Below, in pieces: positions 7,759 to 34,997 of a stretch of DNA of 35,879 bases; position 1 is the first letter of the stretch; every line of letters starts with the position of its first letter. Location: the NCBI GenBank assembly GCA_016794525.1, contig JAEUJY010000128.1, forward strand, positions 1 through 35,879, given 5' to 3'. The notes beneath the pieces are model-generated. The model made no database searches. It was not told the origin of the DNA and saw only the letters and a list, made by a program, of their open reading frames with translations. This DNA comes from Myxococcales bacterium (lineage in GTDB: Bacteria > Myxococcota_A > Polyangia > Haliangiales > Haliangiaceae). A program made the translations under genes and the position numbers.

Positions 7759-9131
7759 TCAGAGGATGAAGCGGGCCAGATCGTCGTCGGCCGCCAGCGC
7801 GCCGAGCCGCTCGACCACGTAGGCCTTGGTGATCGGGATGGTCTGGCGGCCGATGTCGGGCGCGTTGTAGAGCAGATCGTCGAGCAAGCGCTCGAGCACG
7901 GTGTGCAGGCGGCGGGCGCCGATGTTGGCGGTGCGGGTGTTGACGTCGACCGCGATCCGCGCGAGCTCGGCCACCGCCTCGGCGGTCCACTCGATCGTGA
8001 CGCCGTCGGTCGCGAGCAGCGCCGCGTACTGCGCGGTCAGCGCGTTCTGCGGCTCGGTCAGGATGCGGACGAAGTCGTCGGCGGTCAGCGGCTCGAGCTC
8101 GACCCGGATCGGGAACCGGCCCTGCAGCTCGGGGATGAGGTCGCTCGGCTTGGCCATGTGGAAGGCGCCGGCGGCGATGAACAGCACGTGGTCGGTCTTG
8201 ACCGGCCCGTACTTGGTGGTGACGGTCGAGCCCTCGACGATCGGCAGCAGGTCGCGCTGCACGCCCTGCCGCGAGATGTCGGCGCCGCCGCGCTCGTGGC
8301 TGGTCGCGATCTTGTCGATCTCGTCGAGGAAGACGATGCCGTGCTGCTCGGCGCGGGTGATCGCGTCGCGGGTGACCCGGTCGTGGTCGATCAGCTTGTC
8401 GACCTCCTCCTCGGTCAGCGCGTTCCACGCGTCGGGCACCTTGAGCTTGCGCCGGCGCTGCCGCTTGTTGAGCCCGCCCAGCAGATCCTTGAGCCCGCCC
8501 AGGCTCGACTCGTCGAGCCCGCTGCCCGGCGCCGAGAACATCTGCATCAGCGGGTGGCCGCCGCCCTCCTCGGTGATGTCGATCTCGACCTCGCGATCGT
8601 CGAGCCGGCCGTCGCGCAGCATCGCCCGAAACTTCTCGCGGGTCGGGTCGGTGACCGTCGGCGCGGCCTCGCCGGGCCGCTCGCCGAAGCGGTGGCCGCC
8701 GCTGGCCCGCGGCAACAGCACGTCGAGCACCCGCTCCTCGGCGGCGTCGCGCGCCCGCGGGCGCACCCGGGCCGCCTCCTCGTCACGCACCAGCTTGACC
8801 GCGACCTCGACCAGGTCGCGGACGATCGAGTCGACGTCGCGCCCGACGTAGCCGACCTCGGTGAACTTCGACGCCTCGACCTTGCAGAACGGCGCGCGCG
8901 CCAGCTTGGCCAGCCGGCGGGCGATCTCGGTCTTGCCGACGCCGGTGGGGCCGATCAGGATGATGTTCTTCGGCGCGATCTCGTCCTTGAGGTCGCCCTC
9001 GACCTGCTGGCGGCGCCACCGGTTGCGCAGCGCGACCGCGACGGCGCGCTTGGCCTCGCGCTGGCCGACGATGTAGCGATCCAGCTCGGCGACGATGGCG
9101 GCCGGCGTCAGCGCGGCGGCGGGCAGGCCCT

Positions 9132-9135: not shown

Positions 9136-9682
<547 letters not shown>

Positions 9683-9686
<4 letters not shown>

Positions 9687-10354
9687 GGTGCGGGAGTCGT
9701 AGCACGCCGGCGCCGGCGCTCGATGATCCAGGTGGCGAGCGGCACCAGCGGCAGCGCGGGCATGACGAAGTACGCCGGCGAGTCGGGCTGCGGCTTGCGC
9801 GGCCGGTAGACCTCGCCGAGCGCCACGCACAGCCCGCCGTAGATCGCGATCACCGCCAGCCCGCACATCGCCCACAGCCGGCGATCGATCGGCGGCGGCG
9901 CGGCCGGCGCCGGCGGCAGCGCGCGCTCGGTGATCAGGCCGGCCCAGCGCCGCAGGTCCCACGCCAGGAGCCCCGCCAGCCCCAGCGTCATCAGCGTCGT
10001 GACGATCACCGTCGGCGCCTTGGCGGTGCTCCAGGTGAACGCGGTGATCGCGGTGGCGATCGGCAGCGCCAGCGCGGCGCCCAGCGCGGCGAACCGCTGG
10101 GTCATCAGCAAGAGCGCGCTCACCAGCTGCATCGCGCCGACGAAGCGGTACAGCCCGCCGGTCGCCAGGAACGCGTGCAAGAAGTCGTGGAACGCGCCGG
10201 CGTTGCCGGGATCCGTGAACGGCTGGCCCAGCAGCTTCTTCAGCCCCGCCGGCACGAACGCGAAGCCGATGACGATCCGCAGGTTGGCCACCGCCAGGTG
10301 CGCCGGCCGCGCCGCGCGCAGCCCATCGAGCCAGACGATCACGCGATCGAGCAT
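9683..10354 (-). CDS. DoxX-like integral membrane protein
   Basis: 223 residues with about five hydrophobic segments (roughly 22-42, 72-92, 95-115, 120-138, 165-185) and an Arg-rich cytoplasmic tail ([10 protein letters not shown]). The early motif [19 protein letters not shown] followed by [13 protein letters not shown] resembles DoxX/SURF4-type proteins, a small membrane family with proposed roles in quinone or thiosulfate oxidation. No catalytic residues can be assigned. It is first in the operon with hslVU (stop overlaps the hslV GTG). A TAGGGT box at 10362-10367 leaves 7 bases to the ATG at 10354, so this operon may have its own leaderless promoter. Confidence 0.7.
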
Positions 10355-10378
10355 CGCCCGTACCCTATCCCACGCGGT

Positions 10379-10735
10379 CTACCGATACCGTGCCTCGTAC
10401 TGCTCGATGCGCGACCGCAGCGACTCGATCGCTTCATCGGCCGCCTCCCCGAATTTCTCGGCCTTGGCGAGCTCCGCTGCCAGCAAGAGGTGCAAGCCTG
10501 TGTCGTCTTTCGTCGTCGGCTTGGCGTAATCCCGTCCGAGCGCCTCCACGCCCCGCAACGTCGTCTCGTAGGCCGTGCGGTCGTCGCCAACTGCGCGCTG
10601 GTGCTCCGCCTCGACTAACGCCGCCCGCGCGGCCGCGATCTGCGCGCGCGCCGTCTCCACAGGTGGCGGCGGCGACGCCGGGCGCGGATGAGGATGGCAC
10701 GCGATCAACGCAAAGCTCGCGACCAGCGCCTTCAC
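10379..10735 (-). CDS. Small lipoprotein paired with the JAB-domain protein
   Basis: 118 residues from GTG at 10735, overlapping the upstream JAB-gene stop in a GTGA. Lipobox LIAC with Cys13 after a short hydrophobic stretch indicates lipid-anchored export. After a Pro/His-rich spacer it is almost wholly helical (residues 26-118, with helices TARAQIAAARAALVEAEHQ, GEAADEAIESLRSRIEQ), like a small TPR-type or coiled-coil protein. Codon 40 is TTA (10616-10618), a codon I noticed nowhere else in the genes here. By position it is a candidate immunity or partner protein for the JAB protein (inference); no family was recognised. Confidence 0.75.
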   Translation of the reverse strand: MKALVASFALIACHPHPRPASPPPPVETARAQIAAARAALVEAEHQRAVGDDRTAYETTLRGVEALGRDYAKPTTKDDTGLHLLLAAELAKAEKFGEAADEAIESLRSRIEQYEARYR

Positions 10736-11772
10736 GGAACGTCCGTACCGGTGACGCGGGTCAGCGTCGCGCCCCGGCCCTCGTAGTACTCGAGGTGGAA
10801 CTCCTGGCAGACGCGGCGTACCGCGACCTCAATCTTCTCCTTGTACGTCCCCTCGGTCGCCGCGAAGACGTTCTCGTAGCAGTCGTACATCGCCCGATAG
10901 AGACCGTTGGCGTTGTTGTCGGCCTCGTAACGCGCCACGATCTTGTCGAATTCTTTGGTCCGCGCGACGACGAACGTCATGTCGCCGGAGCGCAGGATGT
11001 TCAGCGTCTGGCTTTCCTCCTCTGCCGAGATCGACGCAAGATCCGATGAGCTGAAGCTCGCTCCGTCGTTGTCCCGATTCGTGTACGGGTGCGTGTGAAC
11101 CACGCCGACGAGCGACTGCGACCAGCCGACGTCATTGTAGTCCGGCTCGAACTGTCGCGAGTTGTGCCCCTTCCCCCGACGAAACTCGTAAGAGCCGCCG
11201 TAGTTGCGGACCAGGTTGCCGCCTTGTTCCTGCACCGACCCGTCGGCGAGGTGTGAGTCTTTCCACAGAAGGTCGAGCGCGGCCACCGCGGCGGGGGGAA
11301 GCGTAAGCGTGTCCGGCGCCCCACCGCGCCCGTTCAATCCGTGTCGCCTCGACACCTGCTCGAAGGCTGGATCGTGCGCCAGCTTCGACTTCGCCTTGGC
11401 AATCGCAGCCTGCGCGCCGTGAACCGCCTCCTCGACTCGCAGGCCGGGCGTGCCCGGAACGCGCGGGGCGTGCTGCTCCGCTTCGCCACCGAGTGGCTCG
11501 GGTTGCTTCGCTGCGGTGGCTGCGGTCGCGGTCGCAAGAGGCGCCACCAGAGCGAATGCCTCGTTGACGAAGCCGTTGCCGAATCGCCGCGCCGCGGCGG
11601 CGATCAGGGGCTCGGGATCGTGCCTCTCGGATCGCAGACGCGCTGCAAGGTCGGCGGGAGACACGACGCCTTCGTCGAGGGCACCATCGATGGCCGCCGT
11701 GGATGAGACAGCCGCGGTCGTCGCCTCGATCGACGTCCCGTCACGCCGCTCCACACCGTGCCGATCCAACAT
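10732..11772 (-). CDS. JAB/DUF4329-like metallopeptidase domain protein, candidate polymorphic toxin
   Basis: 346 residues. About 1-150: Ala-rich, helical, with low-complexity stretches and no signal peptide. About 155-346: a domain with GVVHTHPYTN at 223-232 and SFSSSDL at 239-245. H226, H228 and D244 fit the JAMM/JAB zinc triad (HxH...SxxD), with a longer than usual loop; E196 in YEFRRG is a candidate catalytic Glu. This arrangement matches DUF4329/'JAB-like toxin' domains often found at the C-termini of polymorphic toxins (family assignment from memory). ATG at 11772 is chosen because a TATCGT box lies 8 bases upstream; the open frame further upstream merely mirrors the epimerase gene. It is coupled to the lipoprotein gene. 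It could instead be a housekeeping peptidase. Confidence 0.75.
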   Translation of the reverse strand: MLDRHGVERRDGTSIEATTAAVSSTAAIDGALDEGVVSPADLAARLRSERHDPEPLIAAAARRFGNGFVNEAFALVAPLATATAATAAKQPEPLGGEAEQHAPRVPGTPGLRVEEAVHGAQAAIAKAKSKLAHDPAFEQVSRRHGLNGRGGAPDTLTLPPAAVAALDLLWKDSHLADGSVQEQGGNLVRNYGGSYEFRRGKGHNSRQFEPDYNDVGWSQSLVGVVHTHPYTNRDNDGASFSSSDLASISAEEESQTLNILRSGDMTFVVARTKEFDKIVARYEADNNANGLYRAMYDCYENVFAATEGTYKEKIEVAVRRVCQEFHLEYYEGRGATLTRVTGTDVP

Positions 11773-11780
11773 CGTTTGGT

Positions 11781-11809
11781 ACGATACGCAAGGCGGTGAC
11801 GCGGAGCAA
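11781..11809 (-). promoter_or_regulatory. Candidate promoter of the JAB/lipoprotein pair
   Basis: Reading the minus strand: TTGCTC (11804-11809), 17 bases, then TATCGT (11781-11786). The -10 box ends 8 bases before the ATG at 11772, so transcription would begin at or next to the start codon. Confidence 0.45.
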
Positions 11810-11940
11810 GTGCCCTCCGGCGCCGCGGTCGCCGCTGGGTTCGGGTCGCTCCCGCGTCGCAAATGCCCCTGTCCTCGCCCGTGCCGCACACTCGCGGCAA
11901 GCCGCTCGACGCGCCTCTCCAGCGGCGGTACACGTCCTGG

Positions 11941-12915
11941 ATGCTCACGCTCGTCACCGGCGGCACCGGTCTGGTCGGCAACGGCATCGCGAAGCGGCTC
12001 GTCGCCGACGGCCACGCGGTGCGCGCGCTGGTCCGCGATCGCGATCGCGCCGCCCCGCTCCTCCCCGACGTCGAGCTCGTCGTCGGCGACGTCACCGCCC
12101 CCTCCTCCCTCGCCGCGGCGATGACCGGCGTCGGGCGCGTCTACCACGCCGCCGGGATGCCCGAGCAATGGCAACGCGACGACGGCGTGTTCGATCGCGT
12201 CAACCACCTGGGCACGGTCAACGTGCTGGCCGCGGCCAAGGCCGCCGGCGTGGCGCGGGTGGTCTACACGTCGACGATGGACGTCTTCGCGGCGCCGCGC
12301 GGCGGCACGCTGGTCGAGGCCAACCTCGATCCGGCCCCCAAGCACACCGCGTACGAGCGCTCCAAGCAGGCCGCCGATCGCGCGGTCGCAGCCGCAGTCG
12401 CCGACGGCCAGGACGTGGTGTCGGTCAACCCGGCGGCGGTCTACGGCCCGGGCCCGGTCCACGTCGCGCTCAACGGCTTCTTCATCCGCCTGCTCACCGG
12501 CAAGGTGCCGCTGCTGCCGCCCGGCGGCATGTCGGTGGCGTACATCGACGGCGTCGTCGCCGCCCACCTCGCGGCCGCCGAGCGCGGCGGCCGCGGCGAG
12601 CGCTACCTGGTCGCCGACGGCTACGCCACCAACCGCGAGCTGGCGACCGAGGCGGTGACCGCCGCCGGCCGCGGTAAGGTCCCGCGCGCCGCGCCGGCGT
12701 GGCTCCTGGGCGGCCTGGCCGGCGTGAGCGCGCCGCTGGCCCGGCTGTTCCGCTTCACGCCGCTGATCGCGCCGGGCCAGCTGACCTTCCTCCTGTGGCA
12801 GGCGCGGGTCGACAGCACGAAGGCACAGGCCGAGCTCGGCTTCGAGCCGACCCCGCTCGACACCGGCGTCGCGCTGACGATCAGGTTCCTGCACGAGCAG
12901 GGCCTGGTGCCGTAG
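11941..12915 (+). CDS. NAD(P)-dependent epimerase/dehydratase family protein (extended SDR)
   Basis: 324 residues from ATG at 11941. Rossmann NAD(P)-binding motif TGGTGLVG at residues 6-13, then GDVTAPSSL (Asp binding the adenine). Active-site YERSK (YxxxK) and an upstream Ser/Thr cluster (YTSTMDVF) fit the extended short-chain dehydrogenase catalytic set. NPAAVYGPGPVH is the usual substrate-loop motif. It resembles sugar-nucleotide epimerases and 3-beta-HSD/dihydroflavonol reductase-like proteins; the substrate cannot be told. The frame is open upstream to 11863, but ATG at 11941 begins directly before the Rossmann strand. Its 3' end overlaps the convergent xerC by 35 bases. Confidence 0.87.
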   Translation: MLTLVTGGTGLVGNGIAKRLVADGHAVRALVRDRDRAAPLLPDVELVVGDVTAPSSLAAAMTGVGRVYHAAGMPEQWQRDDGVFDRVNHLGTVNVLAAAKAAGVARVVYTSTMDVFAAPRGGTLVEANLDPAPKHTAYERSKQAADRAVAAAVADGQDVVSVNPAAVYGPGPVHVALNGFFIRLLTGKVPLLPPGGMSVAYIDGVVAAHLAAAERGGRGERYLVADGYATNRELATEAVTAAGRGKVPRAAPAWLLGGLAGVSAPLARLFRFTPLIAPGQLTFLLWQARVDSTKAQAELGFEPTPLDTGVALTIRFLHEQGLVP

Positions 12916-13882
12916 CCGCCGGCGCCGGCTCGGCCTGGGCCCGCGGGTGGGCCGCGTCGTAGACCTTCATCAGGTGGTCGAGCGAGATCTTGGTGTAGAT
13001 CTGCGTCGACGACAGGCTGGCGTGGCCGAGCAGCTCCTGGATCGAGCGCAGGTCGACGCCGCCGTCGAGCAGGTGGGTCGCGAACGAGTGGCGCAGCGCG
13101 TGGGGCGTGGCCGGCGCGGTGACGCCCGAGGCGATGGCCCAGGCGCGGGTCAGGCGCTGCGCCGAGCGCGCGGTCAGCCGGGTGCCGCTGGCGTTGACGA
13201 ACAGCGCCGGCCCGGGCGCCCAGCCGCGCGCGGCCTGCCACGCCGCGATCGCCCGCGCCGCGGCGTCGCCCAGCGGCACGATGCGGCGCTTGCCGCCCTT
13301 GCCGCGCGCGACGGTGACGGTCCAGGTGCCGTAGCGATCGCGCTCGAGGTCGGTGGCGTCGAGCGCGCACGCCTCGGACACGCGCAGGCCGGCGCCGTAT
13401 AGCACCTCGAACAGCGCGGCGTCGCGCAGCGCCAGCGCCTCGGCCCGCGCCGCCTCGGCCTGGCCGCGCCGCCGCACCGTCGGCCGGGGCCCGCCGGCCG
13501 GGGCCTCGACCAGCCGGAACGCGTCGTCGACGTCGAGCGCCCGCGGCAGCGCCTGCTTCTTCTTGGGGCCGCGGATCGCCGCCGCCGGGTTGCCGGCGAT
13601 CGCGCCGCGCTTGTGCAGGAAGCGAAAGAACGTGCGCAGCGCGGAGAGCTTCTTGCCGATCGTCGCGGCGTCGTTGGCGTCGAACAGGCTGGCCAGGTGG
13701 CGGCGCACCTCGATCGCGTCGATCGCCGCCGGCGAGAGCGGCGGCCGCGGCGCGCGGCGCGCGGCGACGCCGGCGCGGAACGCCTCGACCTCGGCCAGGT
13801 ACACCGCGCTGGTCCGCGGCGAGTAGCCGCGCTCGCTGGCGAGGTACGCGGTGAACGCCGCGATCGCAGCCGACCAGTCCAT
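12881..13882 (-). CDS. xerC: Tyrosine recombinase XerC
   Basis: Site-specific recombinase that resolves chromosome dimers at dif together with XerD. 333 residues. About 5-120: SAM-like core-binding domain. The catalytic residues are all visible: Arg in GAGLRVSEA, Lys in GKGGKRR, HALRHSFATH (HxxR), LLGHASLSS and the nucleophile Tyr in TQIYTK. An insertion of ~20 Arg/Ala-rich residues near 150 (PRPTVRRRGQAEAARAEA) extends the family norm of ~300. ATG at 13882 has a TAGGAT box 6 bases upstream (13889-13894). It lies 73 bases after the nuoN stop on the same strand. XerD cannot be excluded, but XerC is more likely by N-terminal length. Confidence 0.9.
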   Translation of the reverse strand: MDWSAAIAAFTAYLASERGYSPRTSAVYLAEVEAFRAGVAARRAPRPPLSPAAIDAIEVRRHLASLFDANDAATIGKKLSALRTFFRFLHKRGAIAGNPAAAIRGPKKKQALPRALDVDDAFRLVEAPAGGPRPTVRRRGQAEAARAEALALRDAALFEVLYGAGLRVSEACALDATDLERDRYGTWTVTVARGKGGKRRIVPLGDAAARAIAAWQAARGWAPGPALFVNASGTRLTARSAQRLTRAWAIASGVTAPATPHALRHSFATHLLDGGVDLRSIQELLGHASLSSTQIYTKISLDHLMKVYDAAHPRAQAEPAPAATAPGPARAGT

Positions 13883-34070: not shown

Positions 34071-34997
34071 ATGCCAGCATCCCCGGTTTCGAACAAGAGC
34101 TACGCGGTCTCGCGTTTCGGCGTGGTGATCGACGGCGTCGATCTGACGTCGTACGTGAAGAACGTCGAGGGCGGGCTGCACAAGGTCGAGTCGACCAAGG
34201 AGCAGGTCGGTTCGTACAACCACCCGACGAACCACCTGGCGACGCGCACGATCGAGCCGATCACGCTCGAGGTCGGCCTGTGCAAGGCCAACCCGATCAT
34301 CGACATCGTCGAGAAGATCGTCAACAGCCGCCAGCACAAGCGGCTGAGCGGCGAGATCTTCCACGCCGACGCCAACTCCAAGTCCCGCTTCGAGCAGGAC
34401 TTCAAGAACGCGATGATCACCGAGATCGGGTTCCCCGCGCTCGACGCCGCGGGCAAGGACCTGGCGATGATGAAGCTCAAGCTGCAGCCCGAGGAGGCGT
34501 CGTTCCGCGCCGGCGACGGCTCGTCGATCCCGATGGGCAGCGAGAAGCCGCAGAAGACCTGGCAGAACAACTCGTTCCGCCTCGAGATCGACCAGCAAGG
34601 CGCGGTCACGACCCACGTCACCAAGGTCGAGGCCCTGACCATCGGCGTCACCGCCAAGGCGATCCAGCGCGGCGGGTTCCTCTTGCCCGAATACATGCCG
34701 GGCCAGATCAAGATGCCCAAGCTGTCGATCCACGTGCCGTTGCACCACGCCGGCAGCTTGATCAAGTGGTTTGAGAAGGTGGCGGCCAAGCACAAGGCCT
34801 CCGCGGATGGCGCTGGCTACGAGTCGACCGGCGCGTTGACCTTCCTGGACACGACCACCAAGAAGGACCTCTACACGATCAAGTTCGAGGGCATCGCCCC
34901 CGAGCAGATGACGATCGTGAAGTCCGAGGGCGGCTCCGCCACGCTCAAGACCTGCAAGTTCGACTTCTACCTGACCAACCTGCAGCTCAACAAGTAG
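34071..34997 (+). CDS. Phage-tail-tube (gp19-like) family protein with two predicted domains
   Basis: 308 residues against ~150 for single tail-tube proteins. First half: FGVVIDGVDLTSYVKNVEGG...ITLEVGLCKANPIIDIVEKI...LKLQPEEASF. Second half: NSFRLEIDQQGAV...KVEALTIGV...MPKLSIHVPLHHAGSLIKWFEKV...TGALTFLDTTTKKDLYTIKFEG...EFD-like end CKFDFYLTNLQLN. The tail-tube elements (SVS-like start, 'LEV', 'kW', 'pgPyk...') recur twice, suggesting a duplicated T4-gp19-type module (inference from memory of the family). Good Shine-Dalgarno AGGAG 10 bases upstream. Contractile-system tail genes, baseplate or sheath are absent nearby, so it is an orphan. Confidence 0.68.
   Translation: MPASPVSNKSYAVSRFGVVIDGVDLTSYVKNVEGGLHKVESTKEQVGSYNHPTNHLATRTIEPITLEVGLCKANPIIDIVEKIVNSRQHKRLSGEIFHADANSKSRFEQDFKNAMITEIGFPALDAAGKDLAMMKLKLQPEEASFRAGDGSSIPMGSEKPQKTWQNNSFRLEIDQQGAVTTHVTKVEALTIGVTAKAIQRGGFLLPEYMPGQIKMPKLSIHVPLHHAGSLIKWFEKVAAKHKASADGAGYESTGALTFLDTTTKKDLYTIKFEGIAPEQMTIVKSEGGSATLKTCKFDFYLTNLQLNK

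Follow-up and report, generated by a model that had tools for sequence, protein, structure and literature searches.

The closest described parallels to the locus analyzed here are two clades of JAB-domain toxin. In Bacteroidetes, Tox-JAB-1 occurs with Imm65, a lipobox protein, and this couple is a precedent for a JAB toxin with lipoprotein immunity; toxins of that clade carry NxxxE and HxH motifs and occur in RHS proteins only (PMC3482391). For Tox-JAB-2/DUF4329, the published partner is NTF2-like and is known from E. coli only (PMC3482391). We studied two adjacent genes in a 35,879-nt window that comprises the whole of contig C2 in the 9.8-Mb, 177-contig assembly of a Myxococcales bacterium (genome G000). 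The upstream gene (10732..11772, ATG to TGA) encodes a 346-aa protein, hereafter the toxin, and the downstream gene (10379..10735, GTG to TAG) a 118-aa lipoprotein, the putative immunity protein; both were delimited from open reading frames and homologues, and they and all their features given below lie on the reverse strand. We favor, with a probability of about 0.72, the reading that this pair is a polymorphic toxin/immunity cassette in which a delivered JAMM hydrolase acts in the periplasm and is blocked there by the lipoprotein.

The toxin is closer to Tox-JAB-2/DUF4329 than to Tox-JAB-1, sharing with the former a JAB fold, the E/H[ST]H/S/D motif, the C-terminal position of the warhead and, in some members, fusion to RHS proteins (PMC3482391). 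It differs from Tox-JAB-2 in that its partner is a helical lipoprotein and its score falls short of the Pfam gathering threshold. With Tox-JAB-1/Imm65 the pair has in common a JAB toxin and lipobox lipoprotein immunity, and the statement in an earlier sequence-only reading of this locus (the original prediction) that no such pair had been described is superseded by that precedent (PMC3482391). Imm65, however, is described as alpha+beta with a YxC motif (PMC3482391), whereas the lipoprotein encoded here is modeled as all-helical and TPR-like and has no Pfam match. Toxins of extracellular contractile injection systems (eCIS) that bear DUF4157/eCIS_core resemble ours in lacking an N-terminal Sec signal, in having a variable toxin domain and in residing in a genome with an eCIS (PMC8213781, PMC11297309); further, an N-terminal module of our toxin is joined to eCIS_core in one protein elsewhere. 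Unlike them, our toxin lacks eCIS_core and lies away from the eCIS locus; it also has an immunity gene of its own, a feature missing from most eCIS toxins tested. Among type VI secretion system (T6SS) effectors, Tle1-like lipases act in the periplasm and are matched by Tli lipoprotein immunity proteins. The present pair is similar in its lipoprotein immunity but belongs to a different enzyme class, and G000 has no TssC.

A JAB-domain protein and its lipoprotein partner

The JAB/JAMM-like catalytic domain of the toxin spans residues 134-341 (10750..11373), as delimited by homologue alignment, weak matches to PF14220 and PF14464, and fold matches. The GVVHTHP and SSSD sequences of the original prediction, with H226, H228 and D244, are all present. 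Across the eight full copies aligned, all from Myxococcota (the window toxin, L003, L004, L005, L006, L007, L057 and L060), H226, T227, H228, F240 and D244 are invariant. The putative zinc ligands H226-T227-H228 are encoded at 11089..11097 and the S241-x-x-D244 signature at 11041..11052, its serine kept in 7/8 copies; the putative JAMM glutamate, E182 within QEQGG (11227..11229), is likewise found in 7/8. Canonical JAMM enzymes have the spacing HxH-x7-S-x2-D, whereas the toxin has HxH-x12-S-x2-D, in keeping with the predicted longer loop (12 versus 7 residues).

Against Pfam, the window toxin matches DUF4329 (PF14220, E 0.02) and Prok-JAB (PF14464, E 0.11), both over the HTHP region, and other family members match better (L007 to DUF4329, E 0.001; L060 to Prok-JAB, E 0.0013). 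JAB-domain identity among homologues is 25-44%, with E values down to 6e-44 in family searches, which, together with the conservation of the gene pair, argues against chance. In the structural model, the C-terminal block has predicted local distance difference test (pLDDT) values mostly of 75-93 and is reliable for residues ~150-341 only; JAB/MPN folds make up all 50 of the VIA matches listed (best Z 8.1) and most of the top Foldseek rows, with Rpn11, AMSH, CSN5, PfJAMM1, Cap3 and AF2198 among the structures matched. Motif, Pfam and fold concur, and with moderate confidence the C-terminus is a JAB/MPN fold, though the fold comparison by itself is weak. A phmmer search against PDB sequences gave noise, as did NCBIfam and PADLOC scans, and no Sec signal is visible at the toxin N-terminus.

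The two genes overlap by the 4-nt GTGA stop/start sequence exactly as predicted (10732..10735). The predicted LIAC lipobox also holds: its cysteine, Cys13 of LIA|C (10697..10699), is invariant in nine homologous lipoproteins. The residue at +2 is His, and aspartate follows the lipobox cysteine at +2 in none of the homologues. In E. coli, lipoproteins without Asp at +2 go to the outer membrane, a rule that would place these lipoproteins there. Residues 26-117 (10385..10660) are modeled, with support from the alignment, as a four-helix TPR-like domain (mean pLDDT 86), in line with the helical protein first proposed; a homologue in G019 contains a second, partial copy of it. The lipoprotein family gave nothing beyond noise against Pfam, and its model had no clear match in PDB. 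Measured against Pfam, NCBIfam and PADLOC the family is new, and the pair adds a new family of putative lipoprotein immunity proteins.

Whether homologues always carry the lipoprotein had been posed as a check, and all full copies do. Family searches recovered seven full copies beyond the window's own, plus several toxin tips. In 8/8 full copies the next gene, read in the same direction, encodes a lipobox protein; all of these proteins belong to one helical family, and their genes overlap the toxin gene by up to 23 nt or follow it after at most 29 nt. Conversely, every confident match (E <=8e-5) of a search with the lipoprotein sequence adjoins a copy of the JAB gene. The lipoprotein of the RHS-linked locus was left out of the profile, yet scores 1.6e-7. 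The N-termini vary among homologues, and the C-terminal JAB domain is constant; in G068, a 2519-aa RHS frame (contig C1, L036, 3190-10680), whose SpvB part was recognized by eye, ends in the same toxin domain. One toxin of G028 is followed by three tandem lipoproteins, and on contig C235 of that genome a lipoprotein stands beside an orphan 69-aa toxin tip. Because the warhead is constant, the N-termini are exchangeable and the downstream partner overlaps or abuts, the family has the anatomy of a polymorphic toxin/immunity system.

Among the full copies, L060 is the one with the RHS fusion. The RHS protein of G068 is adjoined by an upstream frame of ~3080 aa, and an orphan toxin tip lies downstream of it, at 227-595.

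An accessory insert and its distribution

The pair lies within a 3.25-kb insert between xerC and hslV (9669..12922) that was delimited by comparison with relatives and holds, besides the lipoprotein and toxin genes, a membrane gene and an epimerase gene. The site is empty in five relatives, four of the same genus (G006, G002, G005 and G004) and G009: in all of these hslV and hslU come directly after xerC, joined in the first four by argB. The membrane gene was called DoxX-like by eye and has no Pfam match; as a synteny anchor it was rejected, being located elsewhere in the relatives, and hslV served instead.

Composition sets the pair apart from its surroundings. GC content at third codon positions (GC3) is 0.815 in the toxin gene and 0.84 in the lipoprotein gene, against 0.96-0.99 in eleven neighboring genes. 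The stretch had been described as less GC-skewed than its neighbors, which is true of GC3, the deviation found by the proposed composition check, but not of GC skew proper: (G-C)/(G+C), about -0.05, is ordinary for the window. Codon 40 of the lipoprotein gene is the TTA noted earlier, and neither the toxin gene nor ten neighboring genes contain any. We considered and rejected bldA-type control through this codon, which fits foreign composition.

Distribution of the toxin family is sporadic. The pair is absent from 6/6 same-genus genomes searched. Of the 95 genomes searched, 6 have it, a count that takes in the window's own genome and one of another family; G386, outside the class, comes in addition. 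Plasmids and viral contigs yielded no match. Scanning genome contigs with a single protein sequence returned no match, and scanning them with a four-sequence alignment recovered three of the same loci from metagenome-assembled genomes. On these sequence comparisons the cassette has the look of a unit that arrived recently and moves horizontally.

Proposed site of action of the toxin

What we infer for the pair, namely its toxicity, zinc, substrate, binding and delivery route, would fit together as follows. The toxin would be tripartite: a hydrophilic segment at the N-terminus that carries a small helical trafficking module, a linker modeled at low confidence and a C-terminal JAMM-type zinc hydrolase. 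It may be injected or otherwise delivered into competitors, with the periplasm as its probable site of action. Most likely it would hydrolyze, in a metal-dependent manner, a peptide or isopeptide bond in an envelope protein or a peptidoglycan cross-bridge. The lipoprotein would leave the cytosol through Sec, acquire its lipid anchor and sit in the envelope on the periplasmic side, where its TPR-like helical domain may bind and block toxin arriving from siblings. Since a lipoprotein protects only outside the cytosol, the periplasm is most likely the place where the toxin acts or is intercepted; and a JAMM site in a periplasmic location suggests a peptidase or isopeptidase rather than a nuclease.

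Several observations weigh against this reading. Zhang et al. (2012, PMC3482391) predicted nuclease activity for toxin JAB domains, and a nuclease would normally need a cytosolic partner. The proposed DUF4329 profile check gave a weak match on the HTHP region that did not reach significance by Pfam's own standard, the window toxin scoring 15.3 bits and its best full homologue 19.4 against a gathering cut-off of 28.6. Foldseek E values exceed 0.001, and Z does not go beyond 8.1; the tool itself rates such values as common. The toxin model was built from four aligned sequences only. In homologue L005, whose N-terminus is probably broken, lysine replaces the JAMM glutamate. Finally, the distant DUF4329-like relatives L062 and L063 have no such lipoprotein partner nearby.

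The nuclease prediction yields the first competing explanation: a Tox-JAB-2-like nuclease would act in the cytosol of the target, and the lipoprotein would trap it as it crosses the periplasm. Zhang et al., who liken toxin JAB domains to RadC in this respect, based the prediction on the absence of the residues of the ubiquitin-tail tunnel (PMC3482391), and later papers class DUF4329 as an RNase domain in passages that present no assay by their authors. The partners, however, are lipoproteins in 8/8 cases, and an injection system can carry its cargo past a trap in the periplasm. Immunity proteins are usually located where the toxin acts, which also counts against a cytosolic nuclease, and we consider this explanation unlikely. 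The original prediction had offered, beside a toxin/periplasmic immunity pair, a metallopeptidase regulated by the lipoprotein, here a housekeeping or predatory enzyme exported to the cell's own envelope or to prey and no toxin/immunity pair at all. Strict coupling of the two genes would suit it, and myxobacteria secrete many hydrolases. Such an enzyme is nevertheless hard to reconcile with absence from six same-genus genomes and from 89/95 searched genomes, foreign GC3 and an empty site in relatives, RHS fusion, tandem partners and orphan tips, and a toxin N-terminus with no visible Sec signal; we judge it the less likely of the two original options and, on its own, very improbable. The toxin/immunity alternative draws support from the constant partner, the tandem copies, the orphan tips, the RHS tip and the insert of foreign composition.

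A literature search did not find a characterized periplasmic JAMM toxin. With envelope lipoproteins as the partners throughout on one side and a nuclease prediction for JAB domains on the other, the question of the JAB-toxin substrate becomes directly testable.

Among the distant relatives, L062 (G428, 10020-12740) is a VgrG with a C-terminal DUF4329-like domain, and L063 (G402, 7971-8603) is a 193-aa lipoprotein that itself bears a JAB/DUF4329 domain (E 1.4e-11); it may be a toxin that cells transfer by outer-membrane exchange.

N-terminal module and possible route of delivery

Residues 37-72 of the toxin (11557..11664), around RRFGNGFVNEAF, form a helical module that was defined by profile and is common to the N-termini of unrelated effector-like proteins. 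Two homologues and one unrelated protein of the same genome have similar N-termini; the model places helices at residues 39-48, 54-64 and 66-76 of the toxin. Neither this module nor the boundaries of the insert had been noted in the original prediction. The module is ~45 aa long, with a consensus of about PxxxxxIxxxLxxxxGNxFVQxVxxA. A four-sequence profile matched proteins outside the profile at E values of 1.6e-10, 2.9e-10, 9.5e-6 and 5.8e-5, and an eleven-sequence profile found matches in 11/18 genomes, up to seven per genome and in every searched genome of the window's genus. Leave-one-out E values range from 0.008 to 4e-11, with shuffled versions at best at 0.31; the weakest, 0.008, is that of the window toxin, for which the best of 50 shuffles gave 770. 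The C-termini of module-bearing proteins comprise alpha/beta hydrolases, peptidoglycan-binding domains, barrel-like repeats and unknowns, and in a G025 protein the module is followed by a Tle1-like lipase (PF09994, E 6.6e-16). In a single example, L183 of G026, the module (residues 59-104) directly precedes eCIS_core (PF13699). These sequence relationships make the module a candidate trafficking signal.

G000 encodes an eCIS cluster on contig C149 (7456-41000; L064, L065 and L185) with two sheaths, Pvc16_N, gp19, base_V, gp25, baseplate J, AAA and eCIS_core. Matches to eCIS_core (DUF4157), mostly in long frames, number 46 in G000, 70 in G006 and 61 in G002, which points to a very large set of eCIS effectors in the genus. 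TssC/VipB (PF05943) was found neither in G000 nor in 16 of 17 other genomes searched, only G068 being positive. Because no T6SS was found in G000 and the module directly precedes an eCIS-core domain elsewhere, an eCIS is the favored route, and we regard eCIS delivery of the toxin as plausible, at about even odds. Somewhat below that we place delivery in the same toxin/immunity scheme by another route, for which the module would be the signal; candidates are outer-membrane exchange, a Tad/Kil-like contact system and an unknown exporter. Several results speak for such a route and against an eCIS: the toxin has no eCIS_core (PF13699), and its gene lies far from the eCIS cluster, on a different contig; five sheath-bearing genomes have no module match, and G003 (75% complete) has the module with no sheath match, such that the two do not coincide exactly; and the module is absent from sampled DUF4157 proteins (best E 0.37 in 353 frames), many of which carry instead a PGKxTxTxxLxPR motif upstream of the domain. 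Running the other way are the tandem of module and eCIS_core in L183, the lack of TssC in the searched genomes other than G068, and the presence of an eCIS and many eCIS_core proteins.

For eCIS signal peptides, no specific conserved sequence has been reported (PMC11297309), and our literature search found no paper joining the terms eCIS, Haliangium and N-terminal. The module is a candidate for the sequence-defined cargo signal that eCIS work has so far lacked, and it offers a way to search for the effectors of bacteria that have no T6SS and are rich in eCIS. More specifically, and tentatively, it could be a conserved, alignable loading signal for the cargo of eCIS-like particles in Kofleriaceae, serving many types of warhead, of which the JAMM toxin with its presumed periplasmic action is one; we hold this version to be doubtful.

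Proteins with a GNxFVQ-like module include L183, L109, L149, L151, L100, L103, L104, L126 and L137. An own-genome match of the toxin N-terminus at C149:85144 (E 0.41) was discarded as chance, being in the wrong frame. No other tail genes were recognized in the rest of the window, in which a tail-tube-like protein (Phage_T4_gp19, E 1.1e-14) is encoded on the forward strand at 34071-34997, ~23 kb from the pair.
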